A program made the translations under genes and the position numbers. Shown here piece after piece: positions 29,249-36,398 of a DNA stretch of 64,000 nt (position 1 is the stretch's first letter; each line of letters begins with the position of its first letter). The DNA lies in NCBI GenBank assembly GCA_029261035.1, contig JAJDCD010000025.1:323952-387951 (forward strand). The letters are read 5' to 3'. This stretch comes from Candidatus Omnitrophota bacterium (GTDB lineage Bacteria > Omnitrophota > Omnitrophia > Omnitrophales > JACROU01). The notes below the pieces were generated by a model. It was not told the DNA's origin and did not search any database. It saw only the letters and a list, made by a program, of their open reading frames with translations.

Positions 29249-30274
29249 ATGGGTTCTATGGATACAAAACCTTGGTACCGTCTTAAAGAAGATGAACTCA
29301 TTCATAAGAGAATTACAGAGTTTAAGCTAGAGATCCAGGGGACTCCAGTTGAAAGCTATATCACCCAGTTATATAGTGAATTAGAAGCTCAAGGGCTCTC
29401 ATTCAAGCCTCCCTGTTTCCTTGCAGATGAGTGGTTTTGCCCTGTAGGAGTTCCTGCTATTGGCATCCCTTTTTACCTAGCTCATTCTCGTCTAAAAAAG
29501 ATAGAAAACAACTATATGCTTGAAGTCGAAGGCGGCACAAAAACAGAGTTCATGAAACTCATTCGTCACGAAGCCGGCCACGCCTACTCTTATGCCTATA
29601 ATTTATACAAAAAGTGGAAATGGAGACGCCTCTTCGGCTCTGCATCGCAAGAGTATTTAGACACCTACCGACCTCGACCCTACAGTAAATCTTTTGTTCT
29701 TCATCTAGATAATTGGTATGCACAAAGTCATCCTGATGAAGACTTCGCTGAAACTTTTGCTGTTTGGTTAACACCTAAAATGAAATGGAAAACAAAATAT
29801 CGAGGGTGGAAAGCTTTAGAAAAACTAGAATACGTTGATGAGTTAATGAATTCCATAAAAGGAAAAGATCTGAAAAGAAAGCCCGAAGAAAATCTTGTTT
29901 CACATTCAGGATTAAACATCAAACTTAAAACTTACTACAAAAGAAAAACAAAAGAATACGAACAAGACTCCCCTGATTTTTTCGACAAAGACCTTAAACG
30001 ACTCTTCACTGATCTTTTAGAAGAAAAATCTAATTTAAAAGCTTCCCATTATTTAAAAAAATATCGGCGTAAAATAACCCCCTCCGTTTCTTTTTGGACT
30101 AAAGAAAAAAAGTATATTATCCAACAACTTATGGATAACCTTATTGCTCGCACAGATCAATTAAATCTTTATATACGTAAAGATATGGCCGATATTGATA
30201 TAAATATTACCTCTTATATCACAACACTTGTAACGACGTATTTATTTACAGGAAAGTTCAAAAGGTCAAAATGA
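29249..30274 (+). CDS. Putative zinc metallopeptidase
   Basis: 341 residues, cytoplasmic by sequence. KLIRHEAGHAYSYAY is a zincin HExxH-type site (HEAGH), with a likely third ligand in HPDEDFAETFAVWL, the glutamate-zincin arrangement. Resembles the 'putative zinc-binding metallopeptidase' families; substrate unknown. No good Shine-Dalgarno before ATG 29249 or before the internal ATG 29258. Its stop overlaps the start of the ATP-grasp gene (ATGA), so the two act together. The C-terminal 140 residues are charged and helical. A peptide ligase plus peptidase pair suggests making and cutting, or maturation, of a small peptide. Confidence 0.7.
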   Translation: MGSMDTKPWYRLKEDELIHKRITEFKLEIQGTPVESYITQLYSELEAQGLSFKPPCFLADEWFCPVGVPAIGIPFYLAHSRLKKIENNYMLEVEGGTKTEFMKLIRHEAGHAYSYAYNLYKKWKWRRLFGSASQEYLDTYRPRPYSKSFVLHLDNWYAQSHPDEDFAETFAVWLTPKMKWKTKYRGWKALEKLEYVDELMNSIKGKDLKRKPEENLVSHSGLNIKLKTYYKRKTKEYEQDSPDFFDKDLKRLFTDLLEEKSNLKASHYLKKYRRKITPSVSFWTKEKKYIIQQLMDNLIARTDQLNLYIRKDMADIDINITSYITTLVTTYLFTGKFKRSK

Positions 30275-31290
30275 GTGGAAACGAAAAAATCTTAGTCGTC
30301 TTTGACACATCAAATCCCACTACCCTTGATCAAGATTTCTCTGAAAATCTCAAAGATCCAGGATGGGAAACAGAAAAGAATGTTTGCAAAGCCTTAAAAA
30401 CATTAGGTCATCCGTTTGAACTTCTAGGGGTTTACAATGAAACAAAAATTATTGCAGAAAAAATAAAACAATTTGAACCTACAATGATTTTAAATCTAGT
30501 GGAACGCTTTAATGACACCGCTTCTCTAGACAGAGATATCGCTTCTTATTTTAAATTACAAGGCATTCCCTACACCGGTTGTGGTGCTACCGGTTTAACG
30601 CTATGCAAGAATAAAGGGCTCTCAAAAAAAATCTTAAGCTACCATCGAATTCGAGTCCCTGAATTTCTAATTATTCCAAAAAAAACTAAAATCTACCGCC
30701 CAAAAAAACTACGCTTTCCTATTTTAATTAAACCCTTACAAGAAGAGGCTTCGTACGGAATTTCTCAAAACTCCTTTGTTGAAAATGATCAAGATTTTAA
30801 TGAGCGTATTCAATTTATTCATGAAAAAATGAATCAAGATGCCATAGCCGAAGAATACATACACGGCAGAGAAATCTATGTGAGTATTTTAGGAAACAAA
30901 CGCCTCGATGTCCTTCCTTTCCGAGAACTCACATTCACACGAGTGCCAGACGACGAGCCTAAAATCGCAACCTATAAAGCAAAATGGGATGAGAAATATA
31001 GAAAAAAATGGGGGATTCGTAATCGGTTTGCTAAAAATATTTCAGATTCTTTAACAGAGAAAATTAATGCCACCTGTAAGAAAATCTATCATTTACTTGC
31101 CATTCGCGGTTATGCGAGATTAGACATGCGCCTAACAGAAAACAACGAACTTGTCTTCATTGAAGCGAATCCTAATCCTATTTTAGCTGAAGAGGAAGAT
31201 TTCTCTGAATCCGCAAAAAAAGCAGGCATTCCCTACCCAGACCTAATCAAACGCATTCTAAATTTAAGCCGTTATGAGGAAGTAGAATAA
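30271..31290 (+). CDS. D-Ala-D-Ala-ligase-like ATP-grasp enzyme
   Basis: 339 residues. ATP-grasp fold: an N-terminal Rossmann-like part with MILNLVERFND and GIPYTGCGATGLTLCKNKGL, ATP-site LRFPILIKPLQEEASYGIS, acid-rich loop EEYIHGREIYV, and the Mg site RLDMRLTENNELVFIEANPN. It resembles D-alanine--D-alanine ligases and related peptide ligases, but it is not the ordinary Ddl of this cell as far as can be seen, since no cell-wall genes are next to it. Translationally coupled to the metallopeptidase and followed by a terminator-like stem. Confidence 0.82.
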   Translation: MSGNEKILVVFDTSNPTTLDQDFSENLKDPGWETEKNVCKALKTLGHPFELLGVYNETKIIAEKIKQFEPTMILNLVERFNDTASLDRDIASYFKLQGIPYTGCGATGLTLCKNKGLSKKILSYHRIRVPEFLIIPKKTKIYRPKKLRFPILIKPLQEEASYGISQNSFVENDQDFNERIQFIHEKMNQDAIAEEYIHGREIYVSILGNKRLDVLPFRELTFTRVPDDEPKIATYKAKWDEKYRKKWGIRNRFAKNISDSLTEKINATCKKIYHLLAIRGYARLDMRLTENNELVFIEANPNPILAEEEDFSESAKKAGIPYPDLIKRILNLSRYEEVE

Positions 31291-31291
31291 C

Positions 31292-31333
31292 AAAAAAAGG
31301 TGTTAGCGACTGAAGTGACAGTCCCCTTTTTTT
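31292..31333 (+). terminator. Terminator after the ATP-grasp gene
   Basis: AAAAAAAGG (31292-31300) pairs with CCTTTTTTT (31325-31333), with an inner GACTG-aagtga-CAGTC stem. The T-run suits termination rightward. The A-run on the other arm would allow leftward use, but only rightward genes end here. It includes GTGACAGTCCC, a near match to the REP core. Confidence 0.6.
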
Positions 31334-32078: not shown

Positions 32079-35000
32079 TTATTCTCTAGCTACGGGTGCT
32101 TCCATAACTTCGAGAATTCTACCTCTCATGTTTCCCATAAGAATTTTTTTGAATAAATCTCTATCAATATTTCCATCAATGATAATGGATGCTGAATGAG
32201 TGCGAACCAATCTCATGATCAAAGAACTCATTTCACGAAGAGAGAGAGCTCCATACCCACCCTCATAAGTAATTCCTTCTAAATGGGACTTTTCAACTCC
32301 AGGCAAGTTTATATATTGAGCCCCACCTTCAATGCCAAAAAGTAAACCCGCAGATTGATACGCTTCATTAAGAGCAGACATCAATCCCTTTCCACGATCA
32401 TAACTTAAATCAACGTCCACTTCTTCCCCACCATCTGTTTTAATACGAACGGTTCTACCTCGAATAAGGTTATCTAGCCCCCTCTCTATTTCTGCCTGTC
32501 TGGCCGTAAGGGGTTGATAGCCTATTCCACGCTGTGCTATTGGTTCTTCTAAAAGAAACGCTCTTAAAGGCATTCCTTTAGGGGTATCTCGAGCAATAAT
32601 TTCTTGCTCAACATGAGATAAGTTTTCTTTTGCAATTCTAAGCTCTTCATTGAGTTTTACTAAACTTGTTCTTAAATTTAATCTAACAGCATCAACTCTA
32701 TTATAATGATTTTCTTTCATCACTTTGTCTGGGTCTAAATAAAGTCTATTTCCTATCTTCAAAATGCGCTCTGCTTCATTCTCAGCCTCTTGAATCGCTG
32801 TTTCAATTCGCTCAACTTCTGCTTCTGCCTTTTCTTTTTTATCATCTAAAGGATCTCGAGTTAGTTTTCTTTTAAATGCTTCTCTATCAATTTCTCCCTC
32901 AACAATAAAGTCAGCTCCATGTTGCCTGACAAATCTAATAACAAGCTCCCGTATGTGCCTTAAAGATAATACCTCAACCCTTTCCACACTATCATCTTGA
33001 TATCCATCAAAAGCTTCTCTAAACCCAGCCATATCACGGTAACGCTCAATTCCCCTTACCTCTTCCAAAGCAGACAAAAGTCCCTTCTCACTATCATTTC
33101 CTAGAAGAACCTCTACGCCCTCTCCATCATCGGTAATAACACGTACTTTTCTATCATCAAGTAATTCACTCAAACCCTTTTCTATTTCAACTTGTCGATC
33201 GCTATATGCTGGGACCTCTAATCCAGCAATAGGAACGATAGGTTCCTCAATAATAGCTTTAATCGGCCGACCCGTATCTCTTTCAGTTATTTCCCTTCCT
33301 ATTCGTCTCAAATCTCCTTTTGCCATCCTTAACTCTTCTGTAAGCCGCATGAGACCTTCTCTTAAGGAAGCTCTTACAGACATAATTCGTTTATAATGAT
33401 TGTCCTTCATAACCCTATCCGGGTCTGAATAAAGACGCCTTCCAATATTCAACAACCTTTCAGCTTCATTCTCAACATCTTGAATCTCTGATTTAATTCT
33501 TTCTATTTCGGCTTCTGCCACCTCTTTCTTTTCCATCAATGGATCCACTTCTGGGGTGACTGACTCTAATACCTCGATAGGCATAGCCTCAATTTCTCTT
33601 GGGCGTAAAGAGGCTATCAGATTGGCTGCAGATTCTTGATTTTCACTTTTAGTAACATCAAGACCTACGATACCTTTATCCGTTATCTTTTTCATCACCT
33701 CTACATAGACTTTATTTCCATCCACTTCATATTCTCTTGTCGATCGGTATATGGAGGAATTAGTTTCCCTATCCATCACAATGGCATCATTATGGTAAGC
33801 TCCTGTTTGTGTTACTTCTCGATTCCCCACTAAACTCTGCACCTTTTCTAATATGAGTTTTTCAGCATCTTCAATAGCTCCAATGACGGGCAGCTCCCTA
33901 ACAATAGGCTCCAAAATAATAGGAACTTCAACAACTCGAGGCACTTCAATAACTGGAGCAACAGCGTATTCTCTTGGACGCAAAGAAGCTATAAGGCGTG
34001 CTGCCATTTCTTGATTCTCACTTTTAGTAACATCAAGACCAACAATTCCAGCAGCTGTTCTTTTTTCTTTAATATCCAAATAAACCTTTTCGCCATTCAC
34101 TTCATATTCTCTAATAGAGTCATAAATTGAGGCTCCTGACTGTCGATCTGTCATAATAGCGTCATTATAATAAGCTCCCGTTTGCTCAACATTTCTGCTT
34201 TGAAGTAAGGCTTGAACCTTTTCTAATATAAGTCTTTCGGAATCTTCAACAGACCCAATCACGGGTAGCTGAATCAATACAGGCAATTCTATAAGAACAG
34301 GTTCTTCAACAAGAGGGGGTGCTACTTCTATTGGAGCTTCTTGTACTACAATAGCTCTTTCAATCAATGTATTCGTATCAGGATCAATTTCAATAAAACC
34401 TGAACTCGCTATTTGTCTTAACCCGGATCGAGGCTCATTAGAGCTTAATTCAGTAACCATATTAGCTCGCAATAAGATGGATGGAAAATTTTGATCCCTA
34501 ATCAATTGATTAAAATCATCCAAAACAGCATTCGCCTGTCTATTCACACTCGTTGTGAAATTAGCGTTCTGCAAAGGATAATCTCTTCTCTCATGATATA
34601 TTTCCCCATTCCCAAAAGTATAAATATCAAAAGATTCTATTCCTACATTTCCAGGACTATGAAAATTTCTAATCTCCAGCTTTTTAGCTTCTCCATTTGT
34701 CGTGTCATATTCAACCTTAAAAGCACGACTCATTGCGTTCGAAGCAAAACTATAATCTGTCCCTTCAAAAGCAATCAAAGTTCCATTAATATACGTCTTC
34801 GTTAACGACTGACTCAACCCTCCACCCGCCGCATAAGACATAGATGAAATTGTAGAAGAAAATACATTTCCATCGCTATCATAATTCTCAACCGATGTAA
34901 AAATAGGTTTACCATCTAAATTATCTAAACGCATCTGTCTATTTTGTATTGTTCCGTTATTCATTCTAACAAAAAGAGATTGGCGAGACCCGTCTGGCAA

Positions 35001-36281
35001 AGTTAAGTTTTCTCTATATTCTTTAACTTGACCTTGATTATCCAAACGATAATTCGCAACTTCTTCTCCTTGAGCATCTTTAAGAATCACTTGATAAACA
35101 TTCATTTCACCGGTTGTGACATCTTCATTGATATAAAATTCATAACTCTCTAGTTCAGGAAGAGCAACTCGTGTACCTAGTTGAGTCATCGTTGCAACCA
35201 AAGCACCATTTTTACTTGAAACTAAAACTTGTGCTCCCACAGGCAATCTCAATTGCCCTACATAATCAATGACTCTTTGTTGGACTTGAGGCGTCTTTTG
35301 CCTAACAACCTCAGGGTCAAGTACGATATCCACCTCAGCCAACATAATTTGAGGCGCAGCTAATGTTAAGGGAACAGATATAACAGGTTTTGCTTCAGGG
35401 GTAGCAACTCTTATTAGAGGCTCTATTCTTACTTCCTCTTCTTCCATGATAAGAGGCTGTAAGACCATTGGAGATTCTTCTACTATCCTTTCTTTTGGCA
35501 GTGTAAGTACCGGAGCTCCTAATATAGGTTCTATTACTTCTATTCGTTTCTCCTCAACAGGTTCTTCCGATACAGGAAGTTCTGATTTTATCTGTTCTAC
35601 CTCATCTTGTATGGACCTTGCCCTTTCAAGAATGGGTTGGATAGTCGGTTTTGAAGCAACAATTTCTTGTTGTGTACGATCAAATTTTGAAGAGAAATCT
35701 TCACTGCTTTCTACTGCGCTTAAAACCTCAACAACTTCTCCTTTTTCATTTAAATCTAACTGAACATTAAAATAGCGAATTTGCTCATTGACTGAAACTT
35801 CAAATACATCTTCTCTGTTAGAGTAAATTTTTTCCGCGGCTTCATCTTTCTTTTCTTCGACTTCTCCTTTAATAGTTCTACCCGTTAAGTTTACTCCTCT
35901 AAATTTATTCAAAGCGCCCATCACTTTTCTTCGAACATCTTTCCCTATATCTTCATCAGACAAAACATCTTTAATCTGAGATTCGTCCATTCGAGTTAAA
36001 TCAACATCCTCTGAATCAAAAGTTGCTTTTTGAAGAGGGCCTGAAGACATCCAGTTCGTACTTTCTTCTGGGGATTTTTCAGGCTCAAAAGCCTGAATAG
36101 ACTCTTCCTCTTTTTCTTTTTGAAGAGCTTCTTCTTCGACTTCTTCTTGGGATATAGTCTGGGTCTTAGGGTCTAAGGATGGATCTAGCCCTGGAGGTGC
36201 TTGGGCCAATAGATTTGAAATAGGTAAAGCTTGTTGTAAAACAAAACAAAAAATGACTATTTTTATGCAAAAATTTTTCAT
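32079..36281 (-). CDS. Giant secreted protein with two pairs of internal repeats
   Basis: 1400 residues. ATG at 36281 has GGAG seven bases upstream; signal peptide about residues 1-26 (FVLQQALPISNLLAQ). The N-terminal third is acidic and proline-rich. Two repeat types follow. Type 1 occurs twice (around residues 670-790 and 800-930), each with QTGAYYNDAI- or QTGAYHNDAI-, GIVGLDVTKSENQE and LIASLRPRE. Type 2, also twice (about 940-1170 and 1170-1400), has a coiled-coil with EAEIERIKSEIQDVENEAE / EAEVERIETAIQEAENEAER, NHYKR/NHYNR and an HGADFIVEGEIDREAF / HSASIIIDGNIDRDLF close. No family recognised. Probably outer-membrane or extracellular. Confidence 0.7.
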   Translation of the reverse strand: MKNFCIKIVIFCFVLQQALPISNLLAQAPPGLDPSLDPKTQTISQEEVEEEALQKEKEEESIQAFEPEKSPEESTNWMSSGPLQKATFDSEDVDLTRMDESQIKDVLSDEDIGKDVRRKVMGALNKFRGVNLTGRTIKGEVEEKKDEAAEKIYSNREDVFEVSVNEQIRYFNVQLDLNEKGEVVEVLSAVESSEDFSSKFDRTQQEIVASKPTIQPILERARSIQDEVEQIKSELPVSEEPVEEKRIEVIEPILGAPVLTLPKERIVEESPMVLQPLIMEEEEVRIEPLIRVATPEAKPVISVPLTLAAPQIMLAEVDIVLDPEVVRQKTPQVQQRVIDYVGQLRLPVGAQVLVSSKNGALVATMTQLGTRVALPELESYEFYINEDVTTGEMNVYQVILKDAQGEEVANYRLDNQGQVKEYRENLTLPDGSRQSLFVRMNNGTIQNRQMRLDNLDGKPIFTSVENYDSDGNVFSSTISSMSYAAGGGLSQSLTKTYINGTLIAFEGTDYSFASNAMSRAFKVEYDTTNGEAKKLEIRNFHSPGNVGIESFDIYTFGNGEIYHERRDYPLQNANFTTSVNRQANAVLDDFNQLIRDQNFPSILLRANMVTELSSNEPRSGLRQIASSGFIEIDPDTNTLIERAIVVQEAPIEVAPPLVEEPVLIELPVLIQLPVIGSVEDSERLILEKVQALLQSRNVEQTGAYYNDAIMTDRQSGASIYDSIREYEVNGEKVYLDIKEKRTAAGIVGLDVTKSENQEMAARLIASLRPREYAVAPVIEVPRVVEVPIILEPIVRELPVIGAIEDAEKLILEKVQSLVGNREVTQTGAYHNDAIVMDRETNSSIYRSTREYEVDGNKVYVEVMKKITDKGIVGLDVTKSENQESAANLIASLRPREIEAMPIEVLESVTPEVDPLMEKKEVAEAEIERIKSEIQDVENEAERLLNIGRRLYSDPDRVMKDNHYKRIMSVRASLREGLMRLTEELRMAKGDLRRIGREITERDTGRPIKAIIEEPIVPIAGLEVPAYSDRQVEIEKGLSELLDDRKVRVITDDGEGVEVLLGNDSEKGLLSALEEVRGIERYRDMAGFREAFDGYQDDSVERVEVLSLRHIRELVIRFVRQHGADFIVEGEIDREAFKRKLTRDPLDDKKEKAEAEVERIETAIQEAENEAERILKIGNRLYLDPDKVMKENHYNRVDAVRLNLRTSLVKLNEELRIAKENLSHVEQEIIARDTPKGMPLRAFLLEEPIAQRGIGYQPLTARQAEIERGLDNLIRGRTVRIKTDGGEEVDVDLSYDRGKGLMSALNEAYQSAGLLFGIEGGAQYINLPGVEKSHLEGITYEGGYGALSLREMSSLIMRLVRTHSASIIIDGNIDRDLFKKILMGNMRGRILEVMEAPVARE

Positions 36282-36398
36282 GGGTATACTCCACTCCATT
36301 TTCTCTAGCCAGCCCCATAAATAAATCTTTTTTAAACTTGTTTAAATGTTCGCATACATATTGTTACATTGCAAATCTTTATAGTCATTATCTGTTAA

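Follow-up and report, generated by a model that had tools for sequence, protein, structure and literature searches.

The window analyzed here, a stretch of 64,000 nucleotides from a Candidatus Omnitrophota genome (2.7 Mb in 26 contigs, about 95% complete), contains a forward-strand gene for a zincin metallopeptidase of 341 amino acids (29249..30274), followed by a gene on the same strand for an ATP-grasp ligase of 339 amino acids (30271..31290), which has the D-Ala-D-Ala ligase fold but is not a Ddl. As a first-pass annotation of this DNA had claimed, both open reading frames are present and the stop codon of the first overlaps the start codon of the second in an ATGA (30271..30274, forward strand). 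The true start of the peptidase may lie 9 bases further downstream, at the ATG at 29258 (Met4), because most of its relatives begin at the equivalent of Met4. The peptidase, predicted to be cytosolic, combines a divergent PF15887-like N-terminal half with a helical C-terminal region that is specific to the family.

The pair is flanked by a FAS1/ArsR/pst cluster, encoded divergently on the opposite strand, and by a downstream tRNA-Met gene, so that it indeed stands apart from cell-wall genes, as had been proposed. A terminator-like hairpin with a T-run lies 3' of the pair (31308..31330, forward strand); it was not above chance in the scan. Beside the pair, on the reverse strand, the window encodes a protein of 1406 amino acids whose start is signal-like and which contains internal repeats of some segments (32079-36299).

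Conservation and distribution of the gene pair

Among 285 Omnitrophota genomes, 54 encode both proteins and 224 neither, while the peptidase occurs alone in 3 and the ligase, with no peptidase detected, in 4 (Fisher p = 1.6e-49, a value inflated because the genomes are related and not independent). The peptidase gene is single-copy in the 57 genomes that contain it, the sole exception being one gene split across two contigs, and the ligase gene is present in 58 of the 285. In two of the three genomes that have the peptidase only, the locus is cut by a contig end and part of a ligase gene is present. Two related Omnitrophota that have kept the ligase and have no detected peptidase (L147 and L148) both carry a GNAT gene nearby.

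A search of GTDB gave 338 candidate stretches that code for relatives of the peptidase, and the best 80 of these come from Omnitrophota, Verrucomicrobiota and a third phylum (with a record titled Clostridia), which comprises three genomes, all three of them positive. A ligase gene is located, at least in part, on the same strand and 3' of the peptidase gene in 75 of these best 80 loci. Exceptions are three loci that run off the contig (L020, L023 and L083), one in which the ligase occupies two frames (L039), and L030, the only one of the 80 that truly has no ligase gene nearby, its ligase being encoded elsewhere in the genome (498 bits). Pairwise distances of the peptidase and of the ligase correlate with r = 0.97 over 100 loci, and none of 2000 permutations gave a correlation as high. 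Four genomes of a divergent clade of Verrucomicrobiota have the two genes side by side yet convergent, and adjacency therefore outlasted rearrangement. Co-occurrence, adjacency across loci and the correlation of distances rule out chance neighbors: the two genes form a conserved module. Its conservation elsewhere had been set beforehand as a test, and the survey shows that Omnitrophota, Verrucomicrobiota and the third phylum carry it.

No third gene was constant beside the pair over 80 loci, which rules out a larger operon as the general rule. Similarly, no small open reading frame within 900 bases of the pair was conserved beyond close kin in 117 loci, which gives no support to a peptide precursor encoded in cis. 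This result bears on the possibility of a graspetide-like maturation of a ribosomal peptide encoded elsewhere, with the zincin serving as leader or core peptidase. Known graspetide loci do join ATP-grasp ligases with peptidases, zincins included (PMC8939145), but the pair differs from these in that no precursor peptide gene is found near the ligase, which itself has a Ddl fold and reaches only 15.4 bits against the RimK domain PF08443, under the cut-off of 21. We consider a role of this kind very improbable.

The distribution of the pair is patchy even inside the window's order, with the pair present in 6 of roughly 45 order-mates examined, and this pattern fits loss or transfer. Plasmid spread of the peptidase was rejected, given that it had no match among 72,556 plasmids. 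Neither protein matched a known defense or phage family, the PADLOC anti-phage defense models included, although a new kind of defense system would be missed by such a library. The pair also occurs in a divergent form (33-37% identity; L095:4965-7084) on a contig of a viral catalogue, with phage-like tail genes on one side and a glycosidase-like gene on the other, possibly at a prophage border. In three order-mates, a sirtuin gene (PF02146) lies directly upstream of the pair on the same strand (L007:522-1337, L008:731-1477 and L009:671-1495). This arrangement is limited to three genera of the order; there is no such gene beside the window's pair, and it is not recurrent elsewhere.

A Ddl-type ligase with an altered substrate site

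The ligase had been described earlier as D-Ala-D-Ala-ligase-like, and it matches PF07478 (Dala_Dala_lig_C) with 98.1 bits at a cut-off of 24. Its scores against the curated NCBIfam Ddl models, 123.4 and 111.9 bits, are below both cut-offs (243 and 245.65, respectively). The predicted structure (pLDDT 91.7) has a Ddl fold, with a TM score of about 0.75. On another contig, the genome encodes a separate Ddl (L001), which passes the curated Ddl cut-offs with 312.7 and 279.9 bits, matches PF07478 better than the window ligase and has neighbors read as MurB and FtsQ, as in a murB-ddl-ftsQ cluster. This refutes the possibility, named earlier as one that would undermine the proposal, that the ligase is the only Ddl of the cell.

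We compared 36 members of the ligase family with the L001 Ddl and with what we take to be the E. coli DdlB sequence, according to which residues are numbered. L001 is identical to DdlB at all catalytic and substrate positions discussed here, except for a conservative V18I. At the positions checked for ATP and Mg binding and phosphoryl transfer, all 36 ligases have the same residues as Ddl: K97, K144, S151, E180, E187, K215, R255, D257, E270 and N272. By contrast, the Ddl substrate positions E15, H63, S150, Y216, G276, S281 and L282 are lost in the family. S150 is replaced by Ala or Gly and Y216 by Trp (Phe in one sequence), and no consistent equivalent of E15 or H63 is seen, E15 being kept in at most 3 of the 36, in the N-terminal part of the alignment, which is its least certain part. 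An Asp or Glu is present at the position of S281 in 35 and at that of L282 in all 36 ligases. In the window ligase these acids are E309-D310 (31195..31200, forward strand), in place of the Ser-Leu of Ddl that contacts the second D-Ala.

Because all checked ATP/Mg/phosphoryl-transfer residues are shared with the Ddl/Van family, as is the fold, whereas the triad E15/S150/Y216 and the D-Ala2 contacts S281/L282 are replaced, the ligase is most likely still an ATP-dependent amide ligase, with an acceptor other than D-alanine. The alignment places two acids in the D-Ala2 pocket, which suggests a cationic acceptor, with a basic residue, a polyamine or a Lys-rich protein tail as the likeliest candidates. 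A second Ddl is ruled out by the sub-cut-off scores, the lost substrate residues and the presence of a true Ddl, and an automatic annotation as such, which the ligase is likely to receive, would need correction. The same observations weigh against an accessory editing of the cell wall, whereby wall precursors would receive a residue from the ligase, to be trimmed by the peptidase. The D-Ala-D-Ala ligase fold would suit such a function, but in addition to the lost Ddl substrate residues and the dedicated Ddl, wall genes do not recur in the neighborhood of the pair and no export signal is visible by eye in either protein, making this the least probable of the functions considered here.

The zincin peptidase and its conserved C-terminal tail

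The HEAGH zincin of the first-pass annotation is present, with HEAGH at residues 107-111 (29567..29581, forward strand) and a match to PF15887 (Peptidase_Mx) of 29.6 bits, above the cut-off of 27, that covers model positions 90-165 only (76/236). H107, E108, H111 and E168, that is, an HExxH and a downstream acid, are invariant in 42 relatives. The motif HPDEDFAE (29729..29752, forward strand), in which H161, P162, D163, D165 and E168 are invariant and E164 nearly so among these relatives, contains a candidate third zinc ligand. With its catalytic residues intact, the peptidase is predicted to be active. The predicted structure (pLDDT 87.3) has a zincin core, and the nearest solved folds are M34-type domains, including the Pro-Pro endopeptidases PPEP-1 and PPEP-3 (Z of about 7-10.2 over 130-165 residues, 12-16% identity), and a putative zinc-binding peptidase from Bacteroides (Z 7.3); Foldseek gave E values above 0.02. 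A sequence search of solved structures with the peptidase gave one weak and spurious-looking match. The M34 zincins are exported, unlike what is visible for the peptidase, and the modeled likeness appears to concern the fold only, implying no toxin or secretion role.

Members of Peptidase_Mx, including lone phage-borne copies, share the HExxH and EDFAE motifs with the peptidase, which matches the family weakly but above threshold. The peptidase differs from them in an additional C-terminal region of about 130 residues plus the tail, and in its obligate-looking partnership with an ATP-grasp ligase. Peptidase_Mx-like domains are also encoded on viral contigs of 181 kb (L096:4965-5588) and 80 kb (L097:4539-5708); no ATP-grasp partner was found in these two records, and the L097 domain is preceded by an N-terminal region of unrelated sequence, with a match to a phage family of phosphoheptose isomerases.

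At its C-terminus the peptidase carries a basic tail, LFTGKFKRSK-COOH in the window (30242..30271, forward strand) and LFTGKFKR(S/T)K in the family. Its last 9 residues are 95% identical to the consensus in 85 sequences and rank 17th among 333 segments of nine residues; the higher-ranking segments listed are at residues 155-176, around HPDEDFAE. The tail is thus nearly as conserved as the active site of the peptidase, and residues 332-341 have a pLDDT under 50 and are predicted to be disordered. Since the tail remains C-terminal whether the ligase gene overlaps by 4 bases (a gap of -4) or begins as far as +244 bases away, and its synonymous codons vary freely in the 85 sequences, we rejected its interpretation as a masked ribosome-binding site of the ligase gene. 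A motif common to another protein was ruled out in this genome, in which no long open reading frame besides the peptidase ends in FKR(S/T)K. In more distant members the tail is reduced to TG(K/R)F or lost, and KFKR(S/T)K is replaced in the divergent members L143-L146, L095 and L174, which are still paired; this part of the tail is therefore not essential for the module. The tail and the acidic replacement in the D-Ala2 pocket, both absent from the first-pass annotation, provide the best clues to mechanism.

One way to connect these two features is that the ligase modifies the peptidase itself, the tail being the acceptor and its modification a switch of peptidase activity in either direction. 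Several features agree with this: the tail is basic, disordered, exactly C-terminal and conserved nearly at the level of the active site, no other long open reading frame of this genome ends in FKR(S/T)K, the acceptor site of the ligase is acidic, and a sirtuin gene directly precedes the pair in the three order-mates. Yet divergent paired members do without the basic tail, and in L030, although this is one case only, a peptidase with its ligase elsewhere has an altered tail. We regard self-modification of the peptidase as distinctly improbable.

A possible cycle of addition and cleavage

Taken together, the pair is probably an undescribed make-and-trim system. We assign a probability of about 45% to the reading that ligase and peptidase form a self-contained module in the cytosol, comparable in its working to RimK/RimB, with addition opposed by cleavage and the two coupled through the tail. 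Based on the retained catalytic residues, the ligase would activate a carboxylate as an acyl-phosphate and join it to an amine acceptor other than D-alanine, and the zincin would cleave the same or a nearby bond, so that the product is trimmed or the addition reversed. The unfolded basic tail of the zincin would dock on the ligase and thereby couple both activities. Short conserved tails outside the folded part of a protein are usually partner-binding. We propose tail docking and a cycle of addition and removal because the tail is conserved, the acceptor site of the ligase acidic and the pairing obligate-looking; gene linkage as such does not imply that the two enzymes act on one shared bond. 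The joining-and-trimming role put forward in the first-pass annotation fits the data, including its variant of a protein-tail modification, except that a conserved precursor open reading frame beside the pair is absent.

Free amino acids are the typical substrates joined by ATP-grasp enzymes of the Ddl type, and the main rival of an opposed addition and cleavage on a protein is a small-metabolite cycle, in which the ligase would make a free di- or oligopeptide or an amino-acid or polyamine conjugate for storage, as an osmolyte or as a signal, to be hydrolyzed by the zincin for recycling. It would also agree with the finding that no protein target or precursor is linked to the pair, and a tandem ATP-grasp system in the same phyla, with lysine aminomutase and GNAT, suggests that related ligases serve amino-acid conjugates. 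On the other hand, the shape of the zincin is nearest to endopeptidases acting on protein chains, transporter, amino-acid or osmotic genes are not conserved near the pair, and an exact conserved C-terminal tail would be more natural for a protein-protein complex. On balance, we consider a small-metabolite cycle somewhat unlikely, and peptidase self-modification or a role in ribosomal peptide maturation less likely still. Within the RimK/RimB-like reading, a more specific and rather unlikely version is a protein-modification switch, evolved independently in Omnitrophota, Verrucomicrobiota and neighbors, in which a ligase-zincin complex, its basic tail occupying or modified in the acidic acceptor site, would couple the attachment of a peptide-bonded group to a cellular target with its removal.

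In the RimABK system of Pseudomonas, RimB takes off the glutamates that the ATP-grasp ligase RimK has added, and it also stimulates RimK (PMC11957791). The likeness would lie in a co-transcribed ATP-grasp ligase and cognate protease and in a protease that counteracts the extension of a protein tail by amino acids (PMC11957791); for the pair, co-transcription is predicted from gene overlap or short gaps and from co-occurrence. RimK is a RimK-family glutamate ligase, whereas the ligase described here has a Ddl fold and no sign of glutamate specificity, and RimB is a retropepsin-like aspartic protease without sequence relation to the zincin. Belonging to another ATP-grasp family and another protease class, the pair is not a member of RimK/RimB.

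A ligase with a cognate peptidase is a known kind of system. The gene neighborhoods of ATP-grasp amidoligases and peptidases reportedly surveyed by Iyer et al. in 2009 are of the same general kind, an amidoligase with an associated peptidase, and an earlier mention of the pair is possible there. In line with the earlier statement that no described system of this exact pair was known to its author, we found no paper on the pair in the open-access literature. To our knowledge, there are few bacterial examples of a reversible ATP-grasp amino-acid addition opposed by a dedicated protease. If our reading is correct, the pair would add another from mostly uncultured phyla, one that is widespread, self-contained and of independent construction. 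As it consists of two genes with no fixed partners, the complete unit could be transferred to a laboratory strain for direct tests.

The tandem ATP-grasp system mentioned above consists of a recurring lysine 2,3-aminomutase-like radical SAM protein and two tandem ATP-grasp ligases (L170:3353-7327, L171:3168-7076 and L151:2827-6024). In L170 and L171 the second ligase and a GNAT domain form one fusion protein, and a separate GNAT is found beside the tandem in L169. This cluster looks like a pathway for a beta-lysine conjugate.
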